Assembly: GCF_007280415.1 (NCBI RefSeq)
Contig: NZ_VKKU01000001.1
Span: forward strand, 434,001 to 498,000
Direction: 5' to 3'
Length of the DNA: 64,000 nt
Origin: Sphingorhabdus contaminans
Lineage (GTDB): Bacteria; Pseudomonadota; Alphaproteobacteria; Sphingomonadales; Sphingomonadaceae
Below are positions 21,148 to 41,140 of the stretch, piece after piece (within the stretch, counting starts at the first letter, position 1; every line of letters begins with the position of its first letter). The position numbers and the translations under genes were made by a program. The notes under the pieces were generated by a model. The model had not been told where the DNA came from. It was given only the letters and a program-made list of their open reading frames with translations, and made no database searches.

Positions 21148-22482
21148 CTATTTTAGCGGCGCAACCTCTGCATCCGGAAGCGGAACGCCCAGCCATTTTG
21201 CCAAGGTCGGCGCGATCGCCCGCATGTCTACTTCGCCAATATTGTGTCCTTTGGGGATATTTTTGCCCATCATCATGAATGACGAACGCATCAGCGGACT
21301 GGTCGGAAAATAGCCATGCGTTCCTTTGCCCGGGGATCGCGATAGCAAAGGGGCATCCTTACCCTTGAAGCCACCGCCATAAGCGTTGGAAGCAAAGCTG
21401 ACGTAGAAACTCGCCTGCGGATTGCCACCCATTTTTGCGATATCCGTTTTGTTCGCAATGGCAGCGATTCCGTTTGCTGGATCTGCTTTCAGCTTTTCGA
21501 GCACTGCCAACACGCGCGCTGTCAGAGCAGTGTCTTCGGGCCGTGCCAGCACGATGGCGGACGAACCGCCTGAGTTCCAGGGACTTGCTTCCCATTTTGA
21601 AATCTTGCCATTGGCATCGAGGGTAATCAGCCCGGCATCGATAAAGGCCCGATACAGATTGACCTCGGTGTCTACCTTGGAAAAACCATGGTCCGAGACG
21701 ACGGCGATGATGCTGTCGGGCAGGGCTTCCAGTTGGACGGAAACCAGTTTTCCAACAATGGCATCAATCCGCTCCAGCACCGCATGTGCCGCAGCGGTGT
21801 CGGGGCCTTTTTCATGCTGCTCATGATCGAGCGCCGTAAAATAGAGCGTAGTGAAATAAGGCTTCTGTCGCTTGATAAGGGCTGCCCCAAATGCACCCCG
21901 GTTCTCATCAGCCTCGATGCTCTCGTCTATTCCGGCGGCATATGTCCCGAGATCCGCCTCAAGCCCCTCCAGCAGTCCGGGTGTCGCCAGCGCTTTTATC
22001 AGCTTGGCGTCATCGCCATGACCAGTGCGCCAAATTTGCGGAATATTCCACGTTATGCCGGCCGTCTTAACACTTACCGGCCAATGCACATTTGCCGTAG
22101 AATATCCAGCCTTGTGGACCGCGTCCCAAAGGGTAGGGACATTGAAATCGCTGGCATACCAGTACCATCCAGTCTGGTTGATCTGCATAGGATCAAAGCT
22201 CGTATTACCTATAATGCCATGTTCTGAAGGACTCACGCCGGTCAACAAGGTTGCATGGCTTGGGTAGGTGACGGTCGGTAGCACCCCTTTTACGCCGCTG
22301 GCATATGTGCCCTCGGTGACGAAGCGCTTCAAATTCGGAATATCTAGACCGCGCTGTTCGGCGTCGATAACATCAGCGGGCTGCAGCCCGTCAATCGAAA
22401 TCAGCAACACTGGTTCGGCCAATGATGCCGATGGCAGCGCGCCCAATGTGAGCGCGCTGCCGATCAACCATCTCGTCTTCAT
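21148..22482 (-). CDS. Exported nucleotide pyrophosphatase/phosphodiesterase (NPP family)
   Basis: 444 residues with a signal peptide (ends near SASLA, about residue 22). Alkaline-phosphatase-superfamily metal and catalytic residues are visible: Asp31 in ISIDGLQP, nucleophile Thr72 in PTVTYPSHATLLTG, then DHEQHEKGPD, VSDHGFSKVD and GTHGYFP. NPP enzymes hydrolyse phosphodiester and pyrophosphate bonds of nucleotides or lipid headgroups in the periplasm. The start overlaps the stop of the upstream TonB receptor by one base (TGATG), so the two are translationally coupled. PhoB-type repeats lie upstream of that receptor, supporting a role in releasing phosphate from organic sources. Confidence 0.9.
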   Translation of the reverse strand: MKTRWLIGSALTLGALPSASLAEPVLLISIDGLQPADVIDAEQRGLDIPNLKRFVTEGTYASGVKGVLPTVTYPSHATLLTGVSPSEHGIIGNTSFDPMQINQTGWYWYASDFNVPTLWDAVHKAGYSTANVHWPVSVKTAGITWNIPQIWRTGHGDDAKLIKALATPGLLEGLEADLGTYAAGIDESIEADENRGAFGAALIKRQKPYFTTLYFTALDHEQHEKGPDTAAAHAVLERIDAIVGKLVSVQLEALPDSIIAVVSDHGFSKVDTEVNLYRAFIDAGLITLDANGKISKWEASPWNSGGSSAIVLARPEDTALTARVLAVLEKLKADPANGIAAIANKTDIAKMGGNPQASFYVSFASNAYGGGFKGKDAPLLSRSPGKGTHGYFPTSPLMRSSFMMMGKNIPKGHNIGEVDMRAIAPTLAKWLGVPLPDAEVAPLK

Positions 22483-24695
22483 CAGAAACCGACCTTGACC
22501 GTGGCAAAGAATTGCTGCGGTGCGCCCGCGAGCAATGTCTGGTTGTCGCCGCTATTTCCAAAACCATTGGAGCCTATGGTCGACACATATTTTTTGTCGA
22601 GCAGATTGGTAGCATTCAACTGCAACTCAATCGGCGACCGCATGCCCATGTCGAAGCGATAGCCGATGGTGGCATCAACAAGCACGCGGCTGGAAACCGA
22701 GCGATCGTTAAGGTAGTTGAAGTAACGCTTACTCATATAGTTTGCGCCGATACGACCAAAAAAGCTGTCGCTATCATAGGCAATTTCACCACGAAGCAAA
22801 TGCTTTGGCGTATCGACCACATCCTTGCCTTTGGTCGGGATGATCGCGGTCGGGGTCACCACGTCGTCCCGATAGGAGGCATCGGTGTAACTATAGGATG
22901 CAAACAGCGTCAAACCTCCGCCGAGACGCAAGTCACCTGCTGCTTCAAAACCTATCGAACGAACCGAGCCTACATTCTGCAAGATCGCTGGATTACCAAC
23001 GATACCGGCACCAGTCTGCACACCAAGCAGTCGGTTGCGGAAGTTGACATAATAGACGCCAATTACACCGTTGAAGACACTGTCGTTATAGCGGGCACCC
23101 AATTCATAGGTGTCCGACTCTTCCGGTTTCAACCCGCGTGCAATCAACGCGTTGAAGCCAGCCTGCGTGGTGGAGAAGGGACCACTGGTCGCGGATGAAA
23201 CGAAAGCGCGAGTTACTTGGGTAAAGCCCCCGAAGATTTCTGCGTTGTCGGTGAGTTTATAGGCAACGCCGGCATGGGGTTGGAACCAGTCCCGGGATTT
23301 GATCTTTCCGGCCGCCAAAGCACCCTGTACCCGCGGATCGGCCTCATTATTTACTTGAAAGCCCTTCCAACCGAGATTGATGGTCAGATCGCCAAGGCTG
23401 ATTTTGTCCTGCACATAATATTGCAGTGTGTCCGTGTTGAAGTCGAACAACCATTGGGTGAAGAAGGGGTTGCGCTGAAACTTGGTGTGGTCCCGACCCG
23501 GCGTTGTGAGGCTCTCATAGGCGTAGAAGCGGCGAGCCTGTGTAAAGTCATTATGCTCATACCAACCGCCGACCGTAATCTCATGGTCGCCTACTTGCGC
23601 ATTTAGCGAACTGAAGACGCCACCGCGTTGGATGTCATATTCGGTGGTACGGATCGACATTGGTACGCCGTTCGGACTGGGAACATAAGGTGTGCCCCAT
23701 GTGCCCTGACCCGTATTATCATGATAATAGGCCTTGATTTTGAAGGTCACGCCATCGCCGAGGGGAGCTGACAGTCCGTAAGATGCAAGCGTGTCCTTGC
23801 GCAGACCCGACGCATCATAATAGCTGTCGTCAAGATTGTTGATCGGTGCTGCGAAGATACCCTGCGCGGCGCGGATTGCCGTTGCATAGTCCGGAAAATA
23901 ATTGTCGTGGTCGTAGCCAAGTCGCGCAATCATTTCCAGGGACAGGTCCTGGTAATCCTGCTCTGCACGATCGGAATAGGCAAAATAGGCATCGAATTCA
24001 GCTACACCAACTGGGATGATCGCCTTTGCATTGATCTGCCAGTTGCGCTGGTCGCCACCACCTTTCCATTTTTCGGCATTGTGATACACGCCTGAAATGA
24101 ACCCGCGGATGCCGTCGGCTTCACCAAAATTGACCCGGCCAAAACCGCGAACGGTGTTTTCGGAACCATAGGTCAGGTTAGCATCTACGCCAAAACCATC
24201 GCTCGGGTCAGCAGAGAAAAACTCGAGTGTACCACCAAGATTGTTGGTCGCTTGGGTGCCGATGGAACCGGAGCCTTGGGAAACTCGGGTAACTCCGATA
24301 TTTTCGGAAATGATGGCACGACCGATGTGGAGGCCGTTGTTGTTGCCGTATGTCGAGTCACCTAAAGGGATACCGTCAAGTGTGTAGCCCAGCTGGTTCT
24401 GGTTAAAACCGCGGATGGAGACACGGCTGGACCATTCATAGGTGCCGAACGGATCCGCCGATTGGAAGTTTACGCTGGGCAGTTTCTCAATTGCCTTTAG
24501 CGGGCTGGTCCCTGGGGCGAGAATCAGGAGTTCCTTACTGCTGATCTCCTGAACCTGCCGGGTCTCGCCTTGGCCGAAAACGACAATTTCGTCGTCTGTT
24601 GCCTCGGTATCCGCAGGCAAATTCGCCTGTTGCGCCATTGCGGGAGAAGCAATGAGGGCCGCACTCGCCAAAAGCATTGAAGTAAATGTACGCAT
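22482..24695 (-). CDS. TonB-dependent receptor coupled to the phosphodiesterase
   Basis: 737 residues. Signal peptide (ends near SPAMAQ), a TonB-box-like DEIVVFGQG, then a plug domain (SPLKAIEKLPSVNFQSADPF, SIRGFNQNQLGYTLDGIPLG, STYGNNNGLHIGR) and a 22-strand-type barrel ending in the usual terminal phenylalanine (TVKVGF). It imports a bulky substrate through the outer membrane. It is the first gene of a two-gene operon with an exported NPP phosphodiesterase, and PhoB-box-like repeats lie 92-176 bp upstream. I infer a phosphorylated or phosphodiester-containing substrate; the compound is unknown. Confidence 0.92.
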   Translation of the reverse strand: MRTFTSMLLASAALIASPAMAQQANLPADTEATDDEIVVFGQGETRQVQEISSKELLILAPGTSPLKAIEKLPSVNFQSADPFGTYEWSSRVSIRGFNQNQLGYTLDGIPLGDSTYGNNNGLHIGRAIISENIGVTRVSQGSGSIGTQATNNLGGTLEFFSADPSDGFGVDANLTYGSENTVRGFGRVNFGEADGIRGFISGVYHNAEKWKGGGDQRNWQINAKAIIPVGVAEFDAYFAYSDRAEQDYQDLSLEMIARLGYDHDNYFPDYATAIRAAQGIFAAPINNLDDSYYDASGLRKDTLASYGLSAPLGDGVTFKIKAYYHDNTGQGTWGTPYVPSPNGVPMSIRTTEYDIQRGGVFSSLNAQVGDHEITVGGWYEHNDFTQARRFYAYESLTTPGRDHTKFQRNPFFTQWLFDFNTDTLQYYVQDKISLGDLTINLGWKGFQVNNEADPRVQGALAAGKIKSRDWFQPHAGVAYKLTDNAEIFGGFTQVTRAFVSSATSGPFSTTQAGFNALIARGLKPEESDTYELGARYNDSVFNGVIGVYYVNFRNRLLGVQTGAGIVGNPAILQNVGSVRSIGFEAAGDLRLGGGLTLFASYSYTDASYRDDVVTPTAIIPTKGKDVVDTPKHLLRGEIAYDSDSFFGRIGANYMSKRYFNYLNDRSVSSRVLVDATIGYRFDMGMRSPIELQLNATNLLDKKYVSTIGSNGFGNSGDNQTLLAGAPQQFFATVKVGF

Positions 24696-24786
24696 TATTT
24701 TTTCCTTCCCTGAGATCGTTTGCGGTCTGCGAAATAGGGTCGGTCGATTGCGCTTTGATGCCGATATGCATTCAGTTTGATAGATG

Positions 24787-24808
24787 TTTCACGACAGCAA
24801 TGTGACAG
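24787..24808 (-). promoter_or_regulatory. Candidate Pho box, two 11-bp repeats, facing the TonB receptor operon
   Basis: Read on the minus strand: CTGTCACATTG followed directly by CTGTCGTGAAA, two 11-bp units with the PhoB core TGTC. The box lies 92 bp before the receptor start, leaving room for a -10 and leader. PhoB binds tandem 11-bp repeats of the CTGTCATAWAW type; this is a match by eye, not a scored one. Confidence 0.6.
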
Positions 24809-24838
24809 CCATCAATCATCTCGTCGGGCCCAACGACG

Positions 24839-24871
24839 AAAAATGACAGAAATATTACAATTTTATTGCAT
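24839..24871 (-). promoter_or_regulatory. Candidate Pho box, three 11-bp repeats, minus orientation
   Basis: Minus-strand units in order: ATGCAATAAAA, TTGTAATATTT, CTGTCATTTTT. They keep exact 11-bp phase and the NTG(T/C)(C/A)A core. Together with the mirrored plus-strand array at 24874-24906 they create a perfect 16-bp inverted repeat (24844-24859 with 24886-24901, TGACAGAAATATTACA). Confidence 0.6.
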
Positions 24872-24873
24872 TA

Positions 24874-24906
24874 ATGTCATATAACTGTAATATTTCTGTC
24901 AGGATT
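24874..24906 (+). promoter_or_regulatory. Candidate Pho box, three 11-bp repeats, facing the TPR-like gene
   Basis: Plus-strand units in order: ATGTCATATAA, CTGTAATATTT, CTGTCAGGATT, in exact 11-bp phase, the first two very close to the PhoB consensus. The array ends only 13 bases before the ATG at 24920, so a promoter activated from it would give a very short leader; alternatively this half serves the opposite operon. Which direction it drives is not decided by sequence. Confidence 0.6.
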
Positions 24907-24919
24907 GAGGAGATTAGTC

Positions 24920-25300
24920 ATGAAAACTCTATTTATCAGCGCTTTGGTTTTGGCCGGCATGAGTGGAGTCGCGCATGCACAACCCGCGGCAAATGGTGAA
25001 GTAAGCTATCCAAAGGGTTCGATTGGTTATGATGCCTTGATTGCGGGCGATAATGAGCGCGCGATTTCGCAGATTTTGTCGAACGAACGGGTAAGTCGCC
25101 ATGACCCAGCGAAACTTATCAATTTGGGTCAGGCCTATGCACGTACCGGTCGCATTGCCGAAGCTGCCGATCTTTTCTCGACGGCACTGCAAAGCCGCGA
25201 AGAGGTCGACCTGGTTCTGGCCGACGGACGAGTCATTAACTCGAAAGAGGCAGCGCGACTTGCCCTGACAGGATTGCAGACGAAACTCGCCTCTCGTTAA
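24920..25300 (+). CDS. Small secreted TPR-like protein
   Basis: 126 residues. The ATG at 24920 has GAGGA 8 bases upstream and gives a clean signal peptide (MKTLFISALVLAGMSGVAHA, cut before QPAANG). The mature part is about 106 residues and mostly helical; INLGQAYARTGRIAEAADLF fits one tetratricopeptide repeat, with a second half-repeat before it (GYDALIAGDNERAISQIL). Probably periplasmic and a protein-protein adaptor. It lies immediately after PhoB-type repeats and is closed by a terminator at 25345, so it is monocistronic. Its partner is unknown. Confidence 0.8.
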   Translation: MKTLFISALVLAGMSGVAHAQPAANGEVSYPKGSIGYDALIAGDNERAISQILSNERVSRHDPAKLINLGQAYARTGRIAEAADLFSTALQSREEVDLVLADGRVINSKEAARLALTGLQTKLASR

Positions 25301-25372: not shown

Positions 25373-25421
25373 ACATGCGCAGAAAAATAAATGCTGCGCC
25401 GCACCACATGATTCTGCGGAT

Positions 25422-25435
25422 GTCACAAAAGTGAC
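25422..25435. promoter_or_regulatory. Inverted repeat GTCAC-AAAA-GTGAC upstream of the lipoprotein gene
   Basis: A perfect 5-bp inverted repeat with a 4-bp spacer, 155 bp before the lipoprotein start. It could be an operator for a dimeric regulator or a degenerate PhoB site (TGTCACAAAA, then TGACCAAAAT, in near 11-bp phase). The palindrome reading is the stronger one. Confidence 0.35.
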
Positions 25436-25590
25436 CAAAATGATTCTCTCAATTGTAATGCGATAACCACAGCCCCGTCACAGGCGGCTTCTATCCGCAT
25501 GCTCGACAACGGGTGGGGCCTCTGTTGATTCGTCGCTGGTCCGTTGCATGCGCCTGAGTACAGGCATTTTATTTGTTGCGGAGAATCAGA

Positions 25591-27162
25591 ATGTTAGATC
25601 CAAAATTGCGTGGCATTATATATGCAACTGCGGCTGCTGCCCTTGTTGCCGGTTGCGGCGCAGACGATATCGCTTCGCCGGGCACCGGCGGAAATATTAC
25701 AATTAACAATCCGGCGCCTCCGCCACCCCCGCCGCCTCCGCCACCACCTCCGGCGGCTGTGACGCCCGCTGGTGGCTGTCCCACGATCGCGGATGCTCAG
25801 GGTCTGACGGATTCCGGTACGATCACCGGGCCTACAGGAACTTATCGCGTCTGCACATTGCCGGCGCGCATCAATACGACAAGCACATTGCCCAAGATTA
25901 CCGGCGTGCTTTATCGTTTGGGTGGCCGCGTTGACGTAGGTACGGACCAAGGTCCTGCTTCAACGAACAACGTCGTAACCTTAAACATTGAACCCGGCGT
26001 CATCGTTTTTGGCGGCACCGGCGTATCCTGGTTGAACGTGAATCGCGGAAACCGCCTGAACGCCGTGGGTACGGCAGCTTTGCCGATCATCTTTACCAGC
26101 CGTGACAATGTGCTTGGCTTGAACACTGACAGCTCAATAGGCCAATGGGGCGGCGTCGTTCTGAACGGACGTGCGCCAATCACCGATTGCGCAGCACCTG
26201 CGGCAACACCGGGTACAGTAGCGTGCGAACGCCAAGTTGAAGGCGCCGTTGATCCGGCACTTTATGGCGGCGCAAACAGTGCGGATAACAGCGGTCGTCT
26301 AAGCTATGTTCAAATCCGGTATTCGGGCTTTGTGCTCTCGGGTAACTCGGAATTGCAATCTTTGACGACGGGCGGAACCGGCACAGGTACCGTCTTGGAT
26401 CATATCCAGTCATTCAACAGCTCGGACGATGGTGCTGAGTTCTTCGGCGGTAACGTCAACATGAAATATTTCGTGTCGATTGGCGCGGATGACGACAATC
26501 TTGATACCGACACGGGTGTTAAGGCGAACTTCCAATATGTTCTCGCCGTCCAGCGCCAAGGTGCGGGTGACTCAATGATCGAGGCGGACTCGGACAACGC
26601 ACTAGACGGGAACATCCCGCGCCAGAATACGCGTCTTGCTAACTTCACCTTCATTCAACGCAGTAATACCGGTAACTTGGCTGCGATCCTTTTGCGCGGT
26701 GGCACGGACTACACGCTGGCCAATGGCGTGATCGTCAGCCCGAACACGTCCTGCTTGCGTATCAGCCGTCCGCAGACAATTTCCGCAACGGTAGACGCGG
26801 CAATAGATGAAGCGGGTGCACCTGTTATCCGTTCCGTCGTTGCGCAATGCGGAACGCCTGCATTCGTAGGTTCGAATGGTGTAACCGAAGCTCAGGTTTC
26901 TGCCATCTTCGGATCGGGAAGCAACAATAACAACAGCGCATTCACACCGACATTGACGTCGCTGTTCATCAACGGCGCAAACGAGACCGCAGTGGGTGCG
27001 TTTAACGCCAGCACACTGAGCGCATTTTTCGATGCGACGTCTTATGTAGGCGCCGTGCGCGATGCTAACGATACCTGGTATGCCGGCTGGACCTGCAACA
27101 GCGGGACAGCAAATCTCGGAACCAGCACATCGGGTCTCTGCACCTCCTTGCCGACCTTCTAA
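25591..27162 (+). CDS. Putative surface/exported lipoprotein with polyproline linker and beta-helix-like domain
   Basis: 523 residues from the ATG at 25591, with GGAGA in place. The signal ends in a lipobox (ALVAGC, Cys22). A flexible segment and a run of twelve to thirteen prolines (about 43-53) follow, then a domain rich in Gly, Asn, Thr and Val with repeating short strands (GRLSYVQIRYSG, VLDHIQSFNSSDDGAEFFGG, MKYFVSIGADDDNLDTD), suggesting a right-handed beta-helix. Asp-rich turns (DDDNLDTDTG) could bind calcium. I do not recognise a catalytic motif. It sits between candidate Pho boxes, a TonB receptor and a type II secretion operon, so a secreted or surface-displayed substrate-binding protein is plausible, not shown. 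Confidence 0.7.
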   Translation: MLDPKLRGIIYATAAAALVAGCGADDIASPGTGGNITINNPAPPPPPPPPPPPPAAVTPAGGCPTIADAQGLTDSGTITGPTGTYRVCTLPARINTTSTLPKITGVLYRLGGRVDVGTDQGPASTNNVVTLNIEPGVIVFGGTGVSWLNVNRGNRLNAVGTAALPIIFTSRDNVLGLNTDSSIGQWGGVVLNGRAPITDCAAPAATPGTVACERQVEGAVDPALYGGANSADNSGRLSYVQIRYSGFVLSGNSELQSLTTGGTGTGTVLDHIQSFNSSDDGAEFFGGNVNMKYFVSIGADDDNLDTDTGVKANFQYVLAVQRQGAGDSMIEADSDNALDGNIPRQNTRLANFTFIQRSNTGNLAAILLRGGTDYTLANGVIVSPNTSCLRISRPQTISATVDAAIDEAGAPVIRSVVAQCGTPAFVGSNGVTEAQVSAIFGSGSNNNNSAFTPTLTSLFINGANETAVGAFNASTLSAFFDATSYVGAVRDANDTWYAGWTCNSGTANLGTSTSGLCTSLPTF

Positions 27163-27240: not shown

Positions 27241-29961
27241 ATGTTGAAGCCATTGGGGGCCATCAGCCTGTTGCTTTTGACGTCAGCGCTCGTTTCGCCG
27301 TCTTTGGCATTCGCGCAAGATGCTGAACAAACGCCAACCGAAACCACAGCCGAGCCACAAGAAACAGAAGCAAATAGCGAGCAGGTGCCCGCTGATCCTG
27401 CTGCCGACGCTGGTGCTACGGAAGAGGAGCAGGTTGACGTTTCCATCCCTGGTGGTGAAGAAATTGTTGTGCGAGGTTACCTTGACCGCAACATTTCGAA
27501 AAATGCGCCGCAAGTTGTTTCGGTTCTTTCTAGCGCCGACATTGAGCGTACTGGCGAAGGTGATATTGCCGGGGCGCTGGCCCGCGTAACCGGCCTTAGC
27601 GTCGTCGGAAATGGCTTCGTTTATGTGCGCGGCCTTGGAGATCGCTATTCACTGGCGTTGCTCAATGGCTCGCCGCTTCCAAGTCCGGAACCGCTGAAAC
27701 GCGTTGTTCCGCTTGACCTTTTTCCGACCAGTGTGATCGCCTCTTCGCTGGTCCAAAAAACCTATTCCGCCAATTTCCCTGGTGAATTTGGGGGCGGGGT
27801 CATCAATCTCACCACTAAAGCCATCCCTCGCGAAACGTTCCTGACTATTGGCGGTGATCTGAGCATCAATGGTGAGACCACGAACCAGTTAGGCTATACT
27901 TATTATGGCAGCTCGCAGGACTGGAGCGGGTTCGACAATGGAAATCGTGACCTTAAGCCTGCGCTGGCGGCCTATCTTGCCAGTGGAGAGCGGATAAGCG
28001 CTGGCAATGTCAATACGCAAGCAATTGCCGGACAACTGGTCACAGGCCGAAACGCCGTAATACAGCGGAACCGCAATCTTCCGCCGAATGGCTCCGCATC
28101 CATTACCGGGGGCACCAATTTCGATATTGGCGATGATGCTACGATGGGTATCATTTTCAACGCCGGCTACAGTAACAAATGGCGCACACGCGACACCATT
28201 CAGCAAACTGCGTCGACCCTTGATCTCTCCCAGAAAGAGCTCGATTTCCAAAAAGTGATTACCGACAACCGTATCGTCGTAAACGGACTTGTCGGTTTTG
28301 GTATCGAAGCAGGTGATCAAAAAGTCCGCTGGACCAATCTGTTTATCCGCGACACGCTGAAGCAGGCCCGTCTGGGCGTAGGTACACGCCAGACCACATC
28401 GCCGACCGCGACACTGATGCAACAGGATACAGCATGGTTTGAACGCCAGTTGGTGGACTCGCAGCTTGTGGGTGAGTTCAAGCTTTCGCCGGACGTCAAC
28501 CTGAACTTCCGCGTCGCCTATGCCAATTCAAAGCGGGAAGCTCCCGATGAATTCAGCTTCGAGTATTTTCGGAGCAACATCGCTACCGATCCTTTCGGCC
28601 AGCAGTTTATCAACCGACTGAACAATGGGCAGCAGGGTAGTGCGGAAGTCAGCTATTCCTATCTGAATGAGGATTTGTGGGCAGGTGGTCTTGATTTGTC
28701 GGTCAAGGTGACGCCTGACATCACCGCAACCGTGGGATATGCATATTCGGACACCACTCGCCGTACCGAACGTCGCGATTTCCAGTTTACGGCACCGGCG
28801 ACATTCCCGACAGCTGTCGCGCTGTTCCGGCCAGATTTCCTGTTGCAGCCTGACGTCATCAATTTCTACAACATCGCTTTGATCGATACGAACGAAGCCA
28901 ATCCGGTATTTGATGCGCGCTTGTTAAACAATGCCGGCTACGGACAGATCCAGGCATTCATTACACCTGAAATCAGTCTGAACATCGGTGTCCGATATGA
29001 AACGGCGAAACAGACTGTCGTTCCTGTCCAGGTTTTTAACACACCCACCGCTTCGCTTGCATCGACCAGTCTGAATAAGAGTTACTGGCTGCCGGCTGCG
29101 ACGCTGACGTGGGATATAACCGATCAAATGAAATTGCGCCTGAGCGGTTCGAAGACCATTGCGCGGCCCCAGTTTCGCGAGTTGATCTTCCAAAATTACT
29201 ACGACACCGATTCAAACCGTCTGTTCCGTGGTAATCCGCTGCTGACCGACAGCCAATTGTACAATGCGGAAGCGCGCTACGAATGGTATTTTGATCGTGA
29301 CCAGCGTTTAACCGTGGCCGGATTTTTCAAACGGATCGACAAACCGATCGAATCCTTTTCGAGCTTCGACGATAACTCGGTCATCACCAGCTTCGCCAAC
29401 GCCCCCAAGGCAGATCTTTACGGTGCGGAAATCGAAACTCAGAAATATTTCGATCTATCGGGTATTGGTGACAAAGGTTTCTTTTCGACACGCCGTGCGG
29501 TCATAATCGCGAACTATACCTACACCAAATCTAAGATCAACGTGAAGCCGGGAGACACGGTCGCCGTGTTCAACTCTTCTTCCACCAATGCTCTGGACTT
29601 TTTTACCAATGGGTCGCCATTGACCGGACAGTCTGATCATCTCGTAAACCTGCAGTTCGGCCTTGAGGATACCGAGCGCCTGTCGCAGCAAACCATCCTG
29701 CTGACTTATGCGACGGAGCGGGTCACGAGCCGCGGTGCATCGGGACAACCGGATATCAAGGAGAAACCCGGCTTTCAGCTCGATTTTGTCGCGCGCGAAG
29801 GCTTTACCTTTGCCGGCAAAGAAGCAGAGTTGAAATTCGAAGTTCGCAACCTGACAAACACTAAATATCAGGAGTTTCAGGAAAGCGGCGATAACAAGAT
29901 CTTCTATAACCGCTACCGCCAGGGGATCAGTGCCTCGATTGGTGTGGAGATCAATTTCTAA
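27241..29961 (+). CDS. Large TonB-dependent receptor next to the lipoprotein
   Basis: 906 residues. Signal peptide (LVSPSLAFAQ) is followed by an unusually long acidic, Glu/Pro/Thr-rich linker (about 26-70), a TonB-box-like EEIVVRGY, a plug (SADIERTGEGDIAGALARVT, FVYVRGLGDRYSLALLNG, NFPGEFGGGVINLTTK) and a barrel ending in terminal phenylalanine (SIGVEINF). The pairing of a surface-type lipoprotein gene with a TonB receptor recalls SusD/SusC logic, though neither protein is of the Bacteroidetes families. Substrate unknown; location in a Pho-box-flanked block suggests a phosphorus compound. Confidence 0.9.
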   Translation: MLKPLGAISLLLLTSALVSPSLAFAQDAEQTPTETTAEPQETEANSEQVPADPAADAGATEEEQVDVSIPGGEEIVVRGYLDRNISKNAPQVVSVLSSADIERTGEGDIAGALARVTGLSVVGNGFVYVRGLGDRYSLALLNGSPLPSPEPLKRVVPLDLFPTSVIASSLVQKTYSANFPGEFGGGVINLTTKAIPRETFLTIGGDLSINGETTNQLGYTYYGSSQDWSGFDNGNRDLKPALAAYLASGERISAGNVNTQAIAGQLVTGRNAVIQRNRNLPPNGSASITGGTNFDIGDDATMGIIFNAGYSNKWRTRDTIQQTASTLDLSQKELDFQKVITDNRIVVNGLVGFGIEAGDQKVRWTNLFIRDTLKQARLGVGTRQTTSPTATLMQQDTAWFERQLVDSQLVGEFKLSPDVNLNFRVAYANSKREAPDEFSFEYFRSNIATDPFGQQFINRLNNGQQGSAEVSYSYLNEDLWAGGLDLSVKVTPDITATVGYAYSDTTRRTERRDFQFTAPATFPTAVALFRPDFLLQPDVINFYNIALIDTNEANPVFDARLLNNAGYGQIQAFITPEISLNIGVRYETAKQTVVPVQVFNTPTASLASTSLNKSYWLPAATLTWDITDQMKLRLSGSKTIARPQFRELIFQNYYDTDSNRLFRGNPLLTDSQLYNAEARYEWYFDRDQRLTVAGFFKRIDKPIESFSSFDDNSVITSFANAPKADLYGAEIETQKYFDLSGIGDKGFFSTRRAVIIANYTYTKSKINVKPGDTVAVFNSSSTNALDFFTNGSPLTGQSDHLVNLQFGLEDTERLSQQTILLTYATERVTSRGASGQPDIKEKPGFQLDFVAREGFTFAGKEAELKFEVRNLTNTKYQEFQESGDNKIFYNRYRQGISASIGVEINF

Positions 29962-29984: not shown

Positions 29985-30021
29985 CGGCAGCACGTCCTGT
30001 GATGTGCTGCCGTTATTTTTT
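29985..30021 (+). terminator. Rho-independent terminator before the type II secretion operon
   Basis: Perfect 9-bp stem CGGCAGCAC / GTGCTGCCG with a 10-base loop, followed by a T-rich tail (TTATTTTTT). It separates the TonB receptor transcript from gspC and rules out the in-frame GTG/ATG at 29999-30002 as the gspC start, since those codons lie inside the hairpin. Confidence 0.88.
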
Positions 30022-30061: not shown

Positions 30062-30105
30062 CGGTCATTAAACTGTCACTTTAGCGTCATTCGCGAGTCA
30101 CAGCA
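30062..30105 (+). promoter_or_regulatory. Candidate Pho box array, four 11-bp repeats, upstream of gspC
   Basis: Four consecutive units in perfect 11-bp phase: CGGTCATTAAA, CTGTCACTTTA, GCGTCATTCGC, GAGTCACAGCA. All share GTCA(T/C) at the same position. PhoB binds such tandem half-sites. The array lies 47 bases before the GTG start of gspC and is followed by no other gene, so it should control the whole secretion operon. Match made by eye. Confidence 0.7.
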
Positions 30106-30151
30106 CCGCCTTAGTTCCGCATTTGATTGTACAGAATCATCGGGGGAAAGT

Positions 30152-30982
30152 GTGGCGTTTTTGCTGGCAGATCGACTTAAGTTGCGCCCGCGCCGGTTCG
30201 CATCGATTTCGGCAGCAACGGTGCTAATCGGTTTGTTGGCATTGCTCGCTGCGGTCCAGTTTGCCCGGTTGGTCTGGTTTATTGTCACTCCTGTCGGAAC
30301 GCTTGGCGACTGGCGGATGCAGACGGTCAATATTGTGCCGCCGTCGGCACGCGCATCGTTATTCGCAGGCTTTGATCCCTTTTTTCGAAATGACCAGACG
30401 ACGGCAGGTGCCGATAATGTGACGTCGCTCAACCTGACCCTGTACGGCATACGCGCCAATGAAAGTTCGGGCGGAGGATCGGCGATTATTGCCGGTGAAG
30501 ATGGCGTGCAGCGTAGCTACGCTGTGGGTGAAGAAGTTACCCCCGGCGTTACACTTGATGCCGTTGCTTTCGACCATGTCATTTTGTCGCGCGGCGGTGT
30601 GAAGGAATCCCTGTATCTGGACCAGTCGGTTCCGGCGGAAACAGTCAATCCTTCAGGGACCGCTTCGGCCCCTGTCATGCCGTCCTCTCCGTCTTCCACA
30701 GGTGCCGCCCTGAACGCCGCTACTTTGCAAAAATCTATCGGTTTCGCTCCGCGCAACGAAGGTGGGCGAATTACCGGCCTTGTCCTTCAACCGCGCGATG
30801 ACGGCACGATGCTGCGTCTTGCCGGATTTCAAGATGGAGATGTCGTTGTTGCAGTAAACGGACGACCTGTTTCTTCGGCCGCTGATGTTGCTGCCCAATT
30901 CCGACCCGGATCTCGCCTCAGCGTTGATGTTGAACGCGGCGGGGCCAAGGTACCTATTTCGATAAATTTGGAACAACCGTGA
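30152..30982 (+). CDS. gspC: Type II secretion protein C
   Basis: 276 residues from the GTG at 30152, which has GGGGGA just upstream. One N-terminal membrane helix (SAATVLIGLLALLAAVQFARLVWF) is followed by the homology region (NLTLYGIRANESSGGGSAIIAGEDGVQRSYAVGEE, given here in two parts around residue 100) and a C-terminal PDZ-like domain (RLAGFQDGDVVVAVNGRPVSS). GspC links the inner-membrane platform to the GspD secretin and helps select substrates. Overlaps gspD by 4 bp (GTGA). Confidence 0.9.
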   Translation: MAFLLADRLKLRPRRFASISAATVLIGLLALLAAVQFARLVWFIVTPVGTLGDWRMQTVNIVPPSARASLFAGFDPFFRNDQTTAGADNVTSLNLTLYGIRANESSGGGSAIIAGEDGVQRSYAVGEEVTPGVTLDAVAFDHVILSRGGVKESLYLDQSVPAETVNPSGTASAPVMPSSPSSTGAALNAATLQKSIGFAPRNEGGRITGLVLQPRDDGTMLRLAGFQDGDVVVAVNGRPVSSAADVAAQFRPGSRLSVDVERGGAKVPISINLEQP

Positions 30983-33168
30983 ACCCTAAACTTCCCCTTT
31001 GGCTGGTGTGCGCAGCCTTGATTTTTGCCGAGCCACTTGCTGCGCAACATACATTGAATGTCCGCGACGCTGACATTCGCGCCTTTGTTCAGGATGCAGC
31101 ACGTGTCACGGGACAGACGTTCATCGTGGACGGGCGCGTGACGGGCAAGGTTTCCGTCGTCACCGATCGCCCGCTTTCGCGGTCCGAATATTTTGAAGTG
31201 TTCCTGTCAACGTTACGCGCCAACGGTCTCGTTGCCATTCCGATGCGCGGCGGGGGATATCGTGTTCAACCATCTGAGGGCGCGGCTACACAACCAAGCC
31301 GCGTGGGCAGCAAGACTGCCGCTCCCAGCCAGTTCGTCACCGAGGTATTCCGCTTGCGATCCATCGACGCCACCACTGCCGTTGAAACACTCCGTCCGCT
31401 GGTCAGCCGCGAAGGGTCGATAACGGCCAACCGGAATGCCAACAGCCTTGTCGTAGCGGATTATGCAGACAATTTACGTCGTATCCGGGAGCTGGTCCGC
31501 CAGATTGACCGTGACTCCGCCGCCACGCAGATTGTGACATTGGACAATGCGGGAGCGCGCGAAATTGCGTTGGCTTTGCAAGGCTTGGCTGGGCAGGGTG
31601 GCGGTGAGGGCGGACGTCCACCGGTCACGGTTGCTGCGATCGACAGCAGTAACGCAATAGCGCTTCGGGGCGATCCGACATCGGTTGCCCGTTTTGCAGC
31701 CATGGCCAAGCAGTTGGATGCGCGTGCGCAGTCCGGCGCGGAAATTCGCGTTTACCGTCTTGAACATGCAAATGCGGAGACTTTGCTGGAAACGGTCCAG
31801 TCTTTAATCGGCGGGCAAAAGGGCGTCGATCCCGTTGCCGATATCCCGCCAGTGGCTGCACCCGCTGGTGCTGCCAGTGCACCCGTATCGGTACCGAGCC
31901 CTGTAACTTCTGTCTCATCAGCAAATGGCATGAACGGAATAGGGGGCAGGGGCCCCGTTGTGGTGACCCGCTATGAAGGCGCAAATGCACTGATCGTGGC
32001 CGCCAATCCGGAAATGCAACGAATGCTGGGTGAGTTGATCCGCCAACTGGATACGCGTCCGGAACAAGTTCTGGTTGAAGCTATCGTCGTCGAAATCGGC
32101 AACGATGCGGCGAAGAAGCTCGGTGTCCAGTTTCTTGTCGGCGGAGAGAATTTGCCCTTCGCCGCAACCAATTATTCCAATGCGACGCCCAATATCCTGA
32201 CCATTGCCGGTGCTATCGGTGCCGAGGAACTGACCCGGACCACAACGACAGTCAACGGCAACACAACGACCACGTCGACCAACAGCGCGCTGGGCGACAG
32301 CTTGCAGGAAGCAGCCGCAGCTTCGATTTTGAGCGCGACCGGCGGATTTGGCGGATTTGCTCTGGATATCGGGAAGAACGCGGTTTTCGGTACAATCATC
32401 AATGCCATTGCCGCTGACACCGAATCCAACTTGCTCGCCACGCCTCACATTGTCACTTTGAACAACCAAAAAGCGAAGTTTTTGGTGGGACAGGAAGTTC
32501 CTGTCAGCACGGGCGAACAACTTTCTGCCAACTTCGAAAACGCTTTCCGCACCGTGCAGCGGCAGGAAGTCGGCATCAAATTGGAAGTGACACCGCAGGT
32601 GAATTCCCAAGGTGATGTAAAGCTTTTCCTCAAACAGGAAGTGTCAAGCGTTGCAGGCCCCGTATCCTCCCGATCAAGCGACCTTATCCTGAACAAGCGT
32701 GAATTCGAAACCACATTGACCGTAGGCGATGGCCAGTTGCTTGCGATCGGGGGGCTGTTGAATGACGACGAAAGGCGGACGATCGAACGAATCCCGCTTT
32801 TGAGCGATATTCCCCTGATCGGCGAATTGTTCAAATCACGCAGCCGTAGCCGCAGCAAAACTAACCTCATGGTCTTCATTCGTCCGACCATTTTGCGCAG
32901 CAAGGCGGACGGTGACCGGCTTACCGCACGGCGTTATGACTATGTCCGGGGGATGCAACTGGCCCGCAATCCGGACATCGAACCGAGCATCGATGATCTT
33001 TTGCGCGATTATATGGGCGCTGTTCCGCCTATCGCTCCGGAAGCCGGACCGAATGATGTTGTCGTGGGCGCGACCAATGTTCTGGAACGGCCCACGAGCA
33101 ATGGTGCGCTTCAGCCTGCCGACATTCCACCCAGCAACATCATCCAGACGGACGGGGACGGCCGATGA
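30979..33168 (+). CDS. gspD: Type II secretion secretin
   Basis: 729 residues. Signal peptide (ends near PLAAQ), an N0 domain (LNVRDADIRAFVQDAARVTG), N1-N3 ring-building repeats (TEVFRLRSIDATTAVETLRP, IRVYRLEHANAETLLETVQS, LGELIRQLDTRPEQVLVEAI), and the secretin core (LATPHIVTLNNQKAKFLVGQ, EVPVSTGEQ, GIKLEVTPQVN, LAIGGLLNDDE, PLIGELFKS). It forms the outer-membrane channel as a large oligomer. A Ser/Ala/Pro-rich insert (about 290-315) separates N domains. No pilotin gene is seen in the operon. Starts with GTG inside gspC and overlaps gspE by 4 bp. Confidence 0.95.
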   Translation: MNPKLPLWLVCAALIFAEPLAAQHTLNVRDADIRAFVQDAARVTGQTFIVDGRVTGKVSVVTDRPLSRSEYFEVFLSTLRANGLVAIPMRGGGYRVQPSEGAATQPSRVGSKTAAPSQFVTEVFRLRSIDATTAVETLRPLVSREGSITANRNANSLVVADYADNLRRIRELVRQIDRDSAATQIVTLDNAGAREIALALQGLAGQGGGEGGRPPVTVAAIDSSNAIALRGDPTSVARFAAMAKQLDARAQSGAEIRVYRLEHANAETLLETVQSLIGGQKGVDPVADIPPVAAPAGAASAPVSVPSPVTSVSSANGMNGIGGRGPVVVTRYEGANALIVAANPEMQRMLGELIRQLDTRPEQVLVEAIVVEIGNDAAKKLGVQFLVGGENLPFAATNYSNATPNILTIAGAIGAEELTRTTTTVNGNTTTTSTNSALGDSLQEAAAASILSATGGFGGFALDIGKNAVFGTIINAIAADTESNLLATPHIVTLNNQKAKFLVGQEVPVSTGEQLSANFENAFRTVQRQEVGIKLEVTPQVNSQGDVKLFLKQEVSSVAGPVSSRSSDLILNKREFETTLTVGDGQLLAIGGLLNDDERRTIERIPLLSDIPLIGELFKSRSRSRSKTNLMVFIRPTILRSKADGDRLTARRYDYVRGMQLARNPDIEPSIDDLLRDYMGAVPPIAPEAGPNDVVVGATNVLERPTSNGALQPADIPPSNIIQTDGDGR

Positions 33169-34721
33169 TCATACGGCGTGGCGATGCAGACCCAGCAGAC
33201 ATGGCAGAGACCGTGTCAGACGAGGTAGTGGAAAATGCTGTACGCGCTCCCTTGATCGATATTCCCTATGCCTTTGCAAAAACCCATGGCGTCGTGTTGC
33301 GCCACCAGGTTGATGACCGACTGGTTGTGGCGATGCGAGAGGGGGCGGACCCTCTGATGCTGCTGGAAGTCCGGCGTTATCTGTCGATGCCTTTTGATGT
33401 CGAGATATGCGATAACAGTACTTTCGACCGCCACTTGTCAGATCATTATGCGATGGACGGCTCCGCCGCCGCTATGGCCGGTTCTATCGGTATGGGCGAC
33501 ACGGATTTGCTATCCGACATGTTACCCAGTGCCGATGACCTTCTCGACAGTGCGGATGATGCTCCGGTAATTCGTCTAATCAACGGGATCATTGCGGAAG
33601 CCGTGCGGCAGGGTGTTTCGGACATCCACATCGAGCCTTATGAAACAGGCCTTGTTATCCGGATGCGGGCCGACGGGGTGTTACAGGAACGGTTGCGTCT
33701 GCCGGCCAATGTTGCCCCGGTCGTCGTCAGCCGGATCAAGGTAATGGCCCGTCTTGATATCGCCGAACGTCGCATACCACAGGACGGCCGGATCGGCCTG
33801 ACATTGGGCGGTAAGCTCATTGATGTGCGTGTTTCTACGCTTCCCAGCCGGGTGGGCGAGCGCGTAGTGATGCGTATTCTGGACAAGGAAAATACCGGCA
33901 TATCTCTCGATGTATTGGGCATGTCCGACGACACACTCAAAATATTGCAGGAAGCTCTTGCGGAACCGAATGGAATCATTCTGGTCACCGGGCCGACAGG
34001 GTCGGGCAAAACCACCACATTATATGCTGGGTTGAAGAGCCTGAACGACGGCACCCGCAACATTTTGACTGTCGAAGATCCCGTAGAATATGCCATTGAC
34101 GGAGTTGGCCAGACGCAGGTCAATTCCAAGGTGGGCATGACATTTGCCGCCGGACTACGTGCGATTTTGCGCCAAGATCCGGATGTCGTGATGGTGGGCG
34201 AAATTCGCGATCGGGAAACGGCCGACATAGCGGTGCAGGCGGCACTGACAGGGCATCTGGTATTGACAACCGTGCACACTAATGACGCGATTGGTGCAAT
34301 TACGCGGATGCGGGACATGAAAGTGGAACCGTTCCTGCTGGCATCGACGTTGCGCGCGGTCATTGCACAACGGCTTGTCCGGCGGCTTTGTCCGTCTTGT
34401 CGCCAGACGGTCCAAGCGGATGGGAATGCAGCATCGTTACTCGGCTTCGACCAGGGGACTGCCGTTTTCAAGGCTGTGGGATGTCCGCAATGTAGTAATA
34501 CCGGATATCAGGGTCGCATTGGCGTGTTCGAAGCGGTCCGGGTCGACGAAACAATCCGCCGTTTGATCAACGATGGTGGTGACGAGGCAATTCTGGCGCG
34601 TCATGCGTTTGTGAACCAACCTAATTTAAGCGCTGCGGCGCGCAAGCTGGTGCGTGCCGGACTTACTACGCCGCAAGAAGCTATACGCATTTCCCGCCGC
34701 GAAGACATTGACGATGCCTGA
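33165..34721 (+). CDS. gspE: Type II secretion ATPase
   Basis: 518 residues. The N-terminal domain is followed by the hexameric ATPase core: Walker A GPTGSGKTTT (about 277-286), Asp box (NILTVEDPVEYAIDGVGQTQ), Walker B and His box (DPDVVMVGEIRDRETADIAV, LTTVHTNDAIGAI). A tetracysteine zinc site (CPSC and CPQC, about residues 407 and 443) is typical of GspE. It powers pseudopilus growth from the cytoplasmic face. Its stop overlaps the gspF start by 8 bp. Confidence 0.96.
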   Translation: MIIRRGDADPADMAETVSDEVVENAVRAPLIDIPYAFAKTHGVVLRHQVDDRLVVAMREGADPLMLLEVRRYLSMPFDVEICDNSTFDRHLSDHYAMDGSAAAMAGSIGMGDTDLLSDMLPSADDLLDSADDAPVIRLINGIIAEAVRQGVSDIHIEPYETGLVIRMRADGVLQERLRLPANVAPVVVSRIKVMARLDIAERRIPQDGRIGLTLGGKLIDVRVSTLPSRVGERVVMRILDKENTGISLDVLGMSDDTLKILQEALAEPNGIILVTGPTGSGKTTTLYAGLKSLNDGTRNILTVEDPVEYAIDGVGQTQVNSKVGMTFAAGLRAILRQDPDVVMVGEIRDRETADIAVQAALTGHLVLTTVHTNDAIGAITRMRDMKVEPFLLASTLRAVIAQRLVRRLCPSCRQTVQADGNAASLLGFDQGTAVFKAVGCPQCSNTGYQGRIGVFEAVRVDETIRRLINDGGDEAILARHAFVNQPNLSAAARKLVRAGLTTPQEAIRISRREDIDDA

Positions 34722-35928
34722 ATTTGCCTATCAGGTTATCGACACTTTAGGTCGGGACATCAAAGGTAAAATCCATGCTGCCGACGATGAAGCAGCGCGG
34801 GCGGCGCTTGCGAAAAAGAGCTATTATGTCGTTAAACTTGATAGTGCTGCGGCTCGACAATCTGTACTTACTGGTTTGCAACGGCGTCGGAGACGTCTGT
34901 CGACCAAACAACTCACCTTATTCACCCGGCAATTTTCGTCCCTGATCCAGGTTAGCCCACTTGAAGAAGCTATCCGTACCATCAGCCGGCAGAGCGAGCA
35001 GGCCCATGTACGCGATATTCTCGGAAACGTGCACACAGGTGTCGTGGAAGGCCAACGGCTTTCCGAGGCGATGCGCCGCGAAGCGTCAAGTTTCCCGGCG
35101 CTCTATCGCGCCATGATCGCAGCGGGCGAGGGAGCAGGGACCCTGTCGCTGATTTCCGAACGACTTGCGTCCTTGCTGGAGCGGCAGGCTGAAATGCGCG
35201 GCAAGATCATCGGGGCCTTGGCCTATCCAGCGGTACTTTCGCTTGTGGCGATTTTAGTCGTGATGGGCTTGATGGTCTCGGTCGTTCCCCGTGTCGTGGA
35301 GCAATTCGACAATGTCGATCAACAACTGCCCCTGCTGACACGCATCGTCATCGGCCTTTCAACATTTTTGGCAAGCTATTGGTGGGTGTTGCTCCTTGTT
35401 ATCATGGCGTTTGCTATGCTGTTTTGGCGGGCGTTGCAGCAACCGCAATTCCGGTTGTTCGTTGATCGGAACGTGCTTGCAATTCCGGTAATCGGCAAAT
35501 TGCTCCGTAATCTCCATGCTGCCCGAATGGCGCGTACCCTGTCGACTATGGTCGCCAGCCGTTTGCCCCTTTTGGAAGGCTTGCGTTTGACAGGCGGGAC
35601 AATCCGTAACAAACTTTTGCTGCAGGCGAACGACGATATTGTCGAAGCGGTACGCAGCGGTGGCAGCCTTTCGGGCGCCATGCGCGCCAGCGGCGTGTTC
35701 CCGCCCTTGCTTGTCTATCTGACCGCCAGCGGAGAAAGTGCGGGACAGCTTGAGCTGATGCTGGAAAGGGCATCGGAATATCTGGAGCGGGAATTCGACA
35801 ATTTCACGAGTGCCGCACTCTCCCTTCTTGAACCGCTTATCATCGTTGCCATGGGCGGCGTGGTGGCGATCATCATTCTGGCAATTTTATTGCCCATTCT
35901 CCAACTTCAAAATCTCACGGGAATATAG
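34714..35928 (+). CDS. gspF: Type II secretion inner-membrane platform protein
   Basis: 404 residues from the ATG at 34714 (MPEFAYQVIDTLGRDIKGK), the normal GspF N-terminus; an in-frame start 60 bases upstream lies inside gspE and is not needed. Two homologous cytoplasmic helical domains (LTLFTRQFSSLIQVSPLEEA, ARTLSTMVASRLPLLEGLRL) flank three membrane helices (VLSLVAILVVMGLMVSVVP, WWVLLLVIMAFAMLF, PLIIVAMGGVVAIIILAILL). It connects the GspE ATPase to pseudopilin assembly. Confidence 0.95.
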   Translation: MPEFAYQVIDTLGRDIKGKIHAADDEAARAALAKKSYYVVKLDSAAARQSVLTGLQRRRRRLSTKQLTLFTRQFSSLIQVSPLEEAIRTISRQSEQAHVRDILGNVHTGVVEGQRLSEAMRREASSFPALYRAMIAAGEGAGTLSLISERLASLLERQAEMRGKIIGALAYPAVLSLVAILVVMGLMVSVVPRVVEQFDNVDQQLPLLTRIVIGLSTFLASYWWVLLLVIMAFAMLFWRALQQPQFRLFVDRNVLAIPVIGKLLRNLHAARMARTLSTMVASRLPLLEGLRLTGGTIRNKLLLQANDDIVEAVRSGGSLSGAMRASGVFPPLLVYLTASGESAGQLELMLERASEYLEREFDNFTSAALSLLEPLIIVAMGGVVAIIILAILLPILQLQNLTGI

Positions 35929-35930
35929 AA

Positions 35931-36407
35931 ATGTTGCGCATCTTGTTTCACCTTTTCACCGATCTGGAACGTGCACCGATTGAATTCCGACGTTCGCGAC
36001 CAAAGTCCGAGCGAAATGGTTTCACCCTTGTCGAAATGATGGTGACACTTTTCATCCTGGCCTTGCTGACCACCATCGTCGCCATCAATGTTTTGCCCAA
36101 TCAGGACAAGGCAATGGTCCAAAAGGCGAAGGCGGATATCGCGGTTTTGGGGCAGGCGATGGAGACGTACCGCCTCGACAATCTGACTTATCCTGACGCT
36201 GGCACAGGGTTGCAGGCTCTCGTGAACCCTCCTTCAACGGCGGGTGGCCGGACTGAGGGCTATATCAAAAAATTGCCAAATGACCCGTGGAACCGCCCCT
36301 ATCAATACACTGTTCCCGGCCGGAACGGGGCGTTCGACATTTACTCGCTGGGTGCAGATGGCGCGCCCGGCGGCGAGAATGAAAATGCGGATATCTACGG
36401 CGAATAG
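35931..36407 (+). CDS. gspG: Type II secretion major pseudopilin, with an unusually long leader
   Basis: 158 residues. The prepilin motif RNG-FTLVEMMV with Glu at mature position 5 is followed by the hydrophobic spine and the GspG core (YRLDNLTYPDAGTGLQALVN, LPNDPWNRPYQYTVPG, FDIYSLGADGAPGGENENAD, whose Asp residues form the calcium site). The leader before Gly is about 30 residues, against roughly 6-10 usually; no nearer ATG, GTG or good TTG with a ribosome site exists, so the long leader seems real. It builds the pseudopilus that pushes substrates through GspD. Confidence 0.94.
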   Translation: MLRILFHLFTDLERAPIEFRRSRPKSERNGFTLVEMMVTLFILALLTTIVAINVLPNQDKAMVQKAKADIAVLGQAMETYRLDNLTYPDAGTGLQALVNPPSTAGGRTEGYIKKLPNDPWNRPYQYTVPGRNGAFDIYSLGADGAPGGENENADIYGE

Positions 36408-36873
36408 GCCAGCTTCCACATCCAAACCCGCAGTAAGCGAGCGTGGCTTTACTCTGGTTGAACTGATGGTTGTATTGTTCATCATCGGCGTGGCGAGTGC
36501 TGCGGTCGTGATGACAGCGCGAACCACGGAACGCGGTGCCCGCGACGAAGCCGAGCAATTGGCGGCGCGCCTTGCCGCGTTGCGCGACCAATCGATTTTA
36601 CAGTCGACACCGATGGCTTTTTCAATCCGGCCATCAGGCTACTCTTTCGAAGCACGGACAGATGGAGCGTGGGGGCCATTGCAGGAAAAACCCTTTGTCA
36701 GCCAGAAATGGGCGCGCGGAACAAGCGCATCTATTGGAGGTGCGCGTCAGCTGCGAGTGGCCTTTGACAGCACCGGCTTGCCATCCAGCAGCGCGGAAAT
36801 CGGCGTCAAACGGGGCGACAAGGTGGTCGTCGTCAACCTGTCCGCAACGGGAGACGTACGTGTCGCGCGTTAA
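36385..36873 (+). CDS. gspH: Type II secretion minor pseudopilin H
   Basis: 162 residues from the ATG at 36385, which overlaps the end of gspG; an ATG two codons upstream (36379) is an alternative. Prepilin motif SERG-FTLVELMVVLFIIG with Glu5. The globular part (GARDEAEQLAARLAALRDQS, SFEARTDGAWGPL, LRVAFDSTGLPSS) fits GspH. It is a minor component of the pseudopilus tip or shaft. Confidence 0.88.
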   Translation: MRISTANRPASTSKPAVSERGFTLVELMVVLFIIGVASAAVVMTARTTERGARDEAEQLAARLAALRDQSILQSTPMAFSIRPSGYSFEARTDGAWGPLQEKPFVSQKWARGTSASIGGARQLRVAFDSTGLPSSSAEIGVKRGDKVVVVNLSATGDVRVAR

Positions 36874-37246
36874 TTTGCCCATTGTCCGCGACGGATTCAC
36901 GTTGCTTGAAATCATGGTTGCGCTTGCCATCTTCAGCCTGGCTGCGCTGGCAATGGTGCGGCTGCAGGGATATTCGGTCCGGTCGACGTCGCAACTGGGC
37001 GAAAGTGGTCTGGCGTGGCAGGTCGCGCGCAATGTGGCGGTCGAGATTTTATCCAGTCCATCCGTTCCGACATTGGGTGAAACGGGCGGAGAGGAACTTA
37101 ACGGCGGGCAAAACTGGCGTTGGACCGCGACGACAAAAAGAACGGATGATGCGCGATTGGTGCTTGTCGACATTCAGGTGTCCGGCACCGGAATTGCAGC
37201 GGCGCGTAAGGCACAATTGACCATAGCGCGACCGGTAGAGCAATGA
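36860..37246 (+). CDS. gspI: Type II secretion minor pseudopilin I
   Basis: 128 residues from the GTG at 36860, chosen because GGGAG lies 6 bases upstream and the leader (VSRVNLPIVRDG) is then 12 residues. The prepilin motif is RDG-FTLLEIMVALAIFSLAAL. The mature body with WQVARNVAVEILSSP and WRWTATTKRTDD is GspI-like. It nucleates the pseudopilus tip with GspJ and GspK. It overlaps gspH by 14 bp and gspJ by 4 bp. Confidence 0.88.
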   Translation: MSRVNLPIVRDGFTLLEIMVALAIFSLAALAMVRLQGYSVRSTSQLGESGLAWQVARNVAVEILSSPSVPTLGETGGEELNGGQNWRWTATTKRTDDARLVLVDIQVSGTGIAAARKAQLTIARPVEQ

Positions 37247-37887
37247 AGAAGGTAAGGACTTCCGAAGCGGGTTTCACGCTGGTGGAACTGCTTGTGGCCT
37301 TGGCCATTTTTTCACTGCTGTCACTAGCAGGGGTGATGCTGCTGCGGTCCGGAAGCGATACACAACTTGCTGTCAAAGACCGCTTGGATGAGCTTTCGCG
37401 CGGCAACCGTCTGCACAATAATGTTGAGGGAGATCTGGCCCAGGCGATTTCCCGTTCGGTTCGTGACCCTGCCGGTGCTTCGATCCCCGCATTTGTCGAA
37501 GAAAGCGGCGATGTTCCCGGCATGTTGTTCGGCTTCGTTCGGGCCGGCTGGTCCAATCTGGATGAAGCGCCACGGCCTGCTTTGCAAAGGGTGGCCTATG
37601 TACTCGACAAGAATAGCCTGAAGCGCTTGAGCTGGCCGATGCTCGACGGTGCAGCACCGTCGGATGCCACTGTCATTGTCGACAATGTGGTTTCTGCACA
37701 AGTCCGGTTCCGTGACGATCGAGGGGAATGGCGGAATGACTGGACTGCGGTCGATGCCGACGCACTTCCACGGGCTGTTGAGTTGCGCATCGCGGTTGCG
37801 GGTAAGTCCGAACAACGGATGCTTTTTCTGGTGGGGCCGCAAAACAGGATCAAACCGGCCGAAACGGATGAGGGTTTGGACGGATGA
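37243..37887 (+). CDS. gspJ: Type II secretion minor pseudopilin J
   Basis: 214 residues. Prepilin motif SEAG-FTLVELLVALAIFSLLSL with Glu5, followed by a globular domain (LDELSRGNRLHNNVEGDLAQ, GMLFGFVRAGWSNLDEAPRP, RVAYVLDKNSLKRLSWPMLD) that fits GspJ. It is part of the tip complex with GspI and GspK. Overlaps both neighbours by 4 bp (ATGA). Confidence 0.9.
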   Translation: MKKVRTSEAGFTLVELLVALAIFSLLSLAGVMLLRSGSDTQLAVKDRLDELSRGNRLHNNVEGDLAQAISRSVRDPAGASIPAFVEESGDVPGMLFGFVRAGWSNLDEAPRPALQRVAYVLDKNSLKRLSWPMLDGAAPSDATVIVDNVVSAQVRFRDDRGEWRNDWTAVDADALPRAVELRIAVAGKSEQRMLFLVGPQNRIKPAETDEGLDG

Positions 37888-41123: not shown

Positions 41124-41140
41124 CGGCGATCCAACTCACG

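Follow-up and report, generated by a model that had tools for sequence, protein, structure and literature searches.

Which signal governs the type II secretion system (T2SS) of sphingomonads? We examined this question in a 64,000-nucleotide stretch of the Sphingorhabdus contaminans genome (contig NZ_VKKU01000001.1, positions 434,001 to 498,000; hereafter the window), in which a gspC–gspO secretion operon is preceded at 30062–30105 by four tandem 11-bp units. A sequence-only reading had proposed that these units are PhoB sites and that the whole operon is a phosphate-starvation gene set. Our analysis makes it very probable that 30062–30105 is a four-half-site PhoB array, forming the activator part of a gspC promoter through which gspC–gspO would be transcribed in phosphate starvation.

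The array upstream of gspC

The four predicted PhoB half-sites, CGGTCATTAAA (30062–30072), CTGTCACTTTA (30073–30083), GCGTCATTCGC (30084–30094) and GAGTCACAGCA (30095–30105), all on the plus strand, fill the array exactly and without gaps, in the perfect phase first described for them. We scored them with a PhoB matrix trained on pstS upstream regions from 29 other genomes of the family, excluding the gsp promoters and the S. contaminans genome itself; shuffle tests used a first matrix of 16 sites, and other scores come from the matrix re-trained on the 29 regions. A site of at least 16 bits was recovered from 28 of these 29 regions, the remaining one holding a weak site at its edge, and the held-out S. 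contaminans pstS box scored 25.8 bits. Most pstS boxes of the family score 16–26 bits, a range that includes the gspC dimers at 30062–30079 (20.0 bits) and 30073–30090 (19.4 bits), while the dimer at 30084–30101 scores 12.1 bits. At these scores the gspC site consists of tandem 11-bp half-sites fitting the PhoB consensus; it shares 11-bp direct repeats, a GTCA core and a count of two or more units with the canonical pstS and phoA Pho boxes, and differs in having three to four units where the minimum is two. Random sequence scores far lower, as the initial proposal required: dinucleotide shuffles matched the best two-unit score of the 190-bp intergenic region in 3 of 20,000 cases and the four-unit in-phase score of 30.4 in 0 of 20,000, with a shuffle maximum of 14.7. 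The 16-site matrix also ranks the gspC array as the top four-unit site of the window, both strands considered.

The array lies, as originally placed, between an intrinsic terminator at 29985–30021 on the plus strand (perfect 8-bp arms GGCAGCAC and GTGCTGCC, then TTATTTTTT) and the GTG start of gspC at 30152, which is preceded by GGGGGAAA; alignments of relatives begin at residue 1 of this reading. Because the terminator ends the upstream TonB-receptor operon, gspC would rely on its own promoter. A -10-like element, TTAGTT (30111–30116, plus strand), begins 16 nt downstream of the first base of unit 4. Direct repeats that replace the -35 box, combined with a poor -10, make up the textbook PhoB activator promoter, and in the phoA promoter the distance from the start of the last unit to a weak -10 is likewise about 16–17 nt. 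This PhoB-type layout and the upstream terminator together mark gspC–gspO as a separate operon.

Orthologous promoters retain the array. We obtained 80 related loci from Sphingorhabdus, Sphingopyxis, Sphingobium, Blastomonas and others, with 78 usable upstream regions including that of the window, and found a site of at least 14 bits upstream of gspC on the coding strand in 63 of 78 loci and on the reverse strand in none. Column-permuted matrices gave a mean of 0.24 positive gspC regions of 78, dinucleotide shuffles scored with the first matrix gave 0.22 of 78, and random segments of the same loci, real sites included, were positive in 2.65% of cases; regions upstream of the internal genes TBDR906 (the TonB-receptor gene before gspC) and gspO had boxes in 0 of 71 and 0 of 67 cases. 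The repeats are conserved in register, as the initial proposal predicted: units 3 and 4 are kept in phase despite falling outside the best-scoring dimer, with extra units at +22 in 61 of 66 relatives and at +33 in 36 of 66, and other offsets nearly empty. Within unit 4, GTCAC is conserved in the close clade. Across 20 close relatives, the GTCA columns hold 1.81 bits, compared with 0.40 in the 60 bp upstream. Of 74 YTAR motifs in relatives' gspC promoters, 61 stand at offset 5 modulo 11 from the units, as do 11 of 13 in pstS promoters, and in both promoter types a -10-like YTAR commonly lies 16 nt downstream of where the last unit starts, which points to a fixed spacing between last half-site and -10-like element in place of a -35 box.

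The genome encodes the regulators that such a promoter would need. Its PhoB scores 338.8 bits against a cut-off of 296.2, and the kinase beside pstS has PhoR as its best-matching model, at 296.8 bits and under the cut-off of 334.2; these genes lie in a phoR-pstS-pstC...phoB region in which a box of the gspC type precedes pstS. Matrix score, in-register conservation and the presence of PhoB with a PhoR-like kinase by pstS lend good computational support to gspC–gspO as a phosphate-starvation gene set. From this arrangement we infer PhoB binding and induction, including its size. When phosphate is scarce, PhoR would phosphorylate PhoB, and PhoB~P would line up on the direct repeats, head to tail and along a single face of the helix; with the last half-site just before the weak TTAGTT and standing in for a -35 box, PhoB would recruit sigma-70 RNA polymerase, leading to transcription of gspC–gspO.

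The secretion operon and its neighbourhood

Pfam and TIGR profile matches recovered the full gspC–gspO set on the plus strand, in agreement with the complete operon first described. It comprises gspC (30152–30982; T2SSC plus PDZ, PF11356, 8e-26), the secretin gene gspD (30979–33168; TIGR02517, 3e-165, above cut-off), the ATPase gene gspE (33165–34721; TIGR02533, 1e-192, above cut-off), gspF (open frame 34654–35928, with the real start probably near 34720; TIGR02120, 1e-134, above cut-off, from residue 24), gspG, H, I, J, K, L and M (35931–40428; Pfam T2SSG, GspH, T2SSI, T2SSJ, T2SSK, GspL_C and T2SSM), and gspN with the prepilin peptidase gene gspO (40425–41887; Pfam T2SSN and Peptidase_A24). 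GspL falls slightly under the cut-off of Pfam GspL_C and over that of TIGR01709 (GspL).

Upstream of the secretion operon, the intergenic region 24696–24919 carries Pho boxes on both strands. A triple box on the plus strand (24874–24902; ATGTCATATAA CTGTAATATTT CTGTCAG; 21.6 and 12.0 bits) faces an operon of TPR, ElpS-like and TonB-receptor genes, and on the minus strand a three-unit box (24843–24871; 16.4 and 12.3 bits) and a second box (24791–24808; 14.4 bits) face a TonB-receptor/phosphodiesterase operon. Boxes of at least 14 bits recur in relatives upstream of the TPR gene (39 of 58 loci) and of the divergent receptor (13 of 17 loci). Upstream boxes at the ElpS-like gene recur in 31 of 71 loci, and its own site in the window (about 25420–25437) is weak.

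The minus-strand operon encodes a 737-aa TonB-dependent receptor (22482–24695; PF00593, 8e-41) and a secreted type I phosphodiesterase or nucleotide pyrophosphatase-like enzyme (21148–22482; PF01663, 1.3e-43; N-terminal signal peptide recognized by eye). On the plus strand, the first gene past the 24874 box encodes a small exported protein with TPR-like repeats (24920–25300; weak TPR hits) that is retained in the island in most relatives, and it is followed by an ElpS-like surface lipoprotein (25591–27162; lipobox LVAGC, proline-rich linker, all-beta domain) and, before gspC, the 906-aa TonB-dependent receptor TBDR906 (27241–29961; PF00593, 1.9e-23, and synteny). The ElpS-like lipoprotein forms a conserved family across the Sphingomonadaceae relatives and keeps its place before TBDR906; a surface lipoprotein and TonB receptor stand directly before gspC in the window and in most of the 80 Sphingomonadaceae loci. 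No Pfam or NCBIfam model matched this lipoprotein and a PDB sequence search with its family returned no match. Its AlphaFold2 model is confident and mostly beta (predicted local distance difference test score, pLDDT, 86), and a fold search with the model found only parallel beta-helices as weak matches, all with E above 0.001.

The gspC array holds up as a Pho site and is not solitary, being one of several Pho-box promoters, and 21148–41887 as a whole looks like a Pho island. The boxes at 24791–24902 would act as the gspC array does, driving the secreted phosphodiesterase and its TonB receptor one way and the TPR protein, the ElpS-like lipoprotein and the second TonB receptor the other. The genes of the island, which include a secreted phosphodiesterase, a surface lipoprotein, two TonB receptors and a T2SS, suggest that phosphorus compounds are released and taken up. 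Such an island would scavenge phosphate, with its secreted and surface proteins freeing phosphate or phospho-compounds and its receptors importing them.

Genome-wide patterns place these sites in context. A three-unit pattern found four places in the whole 3.29-Mb genome, namely both strands of 24843–24902, the gspC site and pstS; the pattern was designed after these sites had been seen, so it ranks the sites without proving them. A strict two-unit pattern showed no enrichment over the whole genome, with 6 hits against 6 for its reversed control. Three of its 6 hits fall at pstS, gspC and the TPR promoter, and other two-unit hits examined in the genome are mostly intragenic or face no gene, with one possible target and otherwise no clear Pho promoter. 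This possible further Pho target is a Gcw_chp-domain gene, about 217 bp before which a single Pho box, CTGTGATGTAATTGTCAC, scores 20.4 bits (G000:C1:1068104-1068121, locus L126, minus strand). A 13.7-bit Pho-like site at 19646–19663 of the window, minus strand, lies within a 346-aa open frame and is probably a chance match.

Alternatives to PhoB control

Several observations weigh against PhoB control of gspC–gspO. The relatives behind the gspC-box counts are non-independent samples, and units 3 and 4 have the lower scores. Outside the family, a box near gspD or gspC occurs in 1 of 25 sampled alphaproteobacterial T2SS loci (genome G208 alone), and within it G071 lacks a good box. In Caulobacter, cc0171, the TonB-receptor gene next to elpS, was reported unchanged with medium, and gspE and gspL rose just 1.7-fold in poor medium (PMC2996285).

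The exceptions delimit the pattern. Since 1 of 25 outside loci is positive and G071 is negative, the gspC box is lineage-specific. G071 has its T2SS and its ElpS/TonB pair at separate places with no good boxes, and G042, also a family member, has the pair with boxes and no gspD-type T2SS that we could find; given these and the outside-family cases, the coupling of box, T2SS and ElpS/TonB pair is common, not universal. Judged from G042, the ElpS-like/TonB-receptor pair may be Pho-controlled even without a secretion system. There (L251, G042:C1:1960000-1971000), Pho boxes lie near 6538–6739 and 7279, between the pair and the TPR gene. G208 belongs to a different family of Alphaproteobacteria. 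About 210 bp before its gspD operon lies a Pho box of three units (L245, G208:C3, 3734–3762, minus strand), with a TonB receptor and a tandem pair of ElpS-like genes beside it. The GspC model TIGR01713 is too divergent to serve a class-wide search.

Among the rival explanations, the one that survives best is that the box is real and minor, the operon being mainly constitutive and PhoB adding a small boost. We consider this unlikely: in a later study the T2SS of Caulobacter counts as robustly dependent on PhoB (PMC11208175), the terminator restricts read-through from upstream, and conservation in the gspC promoter region is concentrated in the array, the ribosome-binding stretch and the -10-like element. 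Far less probable is that another OmpR-family response regulator binds the repeats and the operon answers a different signal. Related OmpR-family regulators use similar spacing, and five further regulators in the genome fit the PhoB model near full length, below cut-off, but the matrix derives from the promoters of pstS, the defining target of PhoB, and gspC shares their phase and their spacing to the -10. The genes that the adjacent boxes face, a phosphodiesterase and receptors, are moreover typical Pho-regulon members, and the Caulobacter T2SS is under PhoB control. Single GTCAY words are common, but their chance arrangement into this array is practically negligible, given a four-unit score that no shuffle reached and a register kept across about 60 relatives, a conservation that already refutes it.

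Known systems and significance

The closest parallel to a PhoB-controlled gspC–gspO operon is in Caulobacter, where elpS (cc0170), the TonB-receptor gene cc0171 and gspC–N are adjacent and ElpS is produced and released in phosphate starvation (PMC2996285). That 2010 paper noted the same elpS-TonB receptor-gsp arrangement in Sphingomonas alaskensis (PMC2996285), and according to a 2024 study the members of the Caulobacter PhoB regulon include a nucleotide pyrophosphatase, TonB receptors and the T2SS (PMC11208175). The window shares with Caulobacter crescentus the order lipoprotein, TonB receptor, gspC onward, but its gspN is followed by gspO in the same orientation, where the gspO of Caulobacter is on the opposite strand, and its island adds the divergent phosphodiesterase/TonB-receptor operon and the TPR gene. 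The lipoprotein resembles Caulobacter ElpS by lipobox and position, with fold matches only weakly beta-helix-like. A further parallel is Hxc of Pseudomonas aeruginosa, a T2SS induced by phosphate limitation; Hxc is a second, specialised T2SS serving a phosphatase, whereas the T2SS described here is the only gspD-type system over cut-off in its genome.

The sequence-only reading knew of no sphingomonad case, and our searches of the open-access literature likewise turned up no sphingomonad T2SS described as PhoB-controlled. A PhoB-controlled T2SS thus appears new for Sphingomonadaceae, though not new in kind, since PhoB control of the syntenic Caulobacter system is published. A broader proposal, which we regard as evenly balanced between true and false, is that in most Sphingomonadaceae carrying it the T2SS is a dedicated phosphate-starvation machine with a three- to four-unit PhoB array as its main promoter, sharing one scavenging island with operons under PhoB control of their own, for ElpS-like lipoprotein, TonB receptor and, in some genera, phosphodiesterase, and with cargo mainly for phosphorus acquisition.

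Water, leaf and soil habitats poor in phosphate commonly harbour sphingomonads, and the literature we found on their T2SS describes no inducer. A conserved PhoB promoter would tell when the system is made, and it predicts a cargo of phosphorus-scavenging enzymes and surface lipoproteins. Phosphate starvation would then be a simple condition for finding T2SS substrates in Sphingomonadaceae, and the connection of type II secretion with phosphate known from Caulobacter would extend to a second large alphaproteobacterial family.
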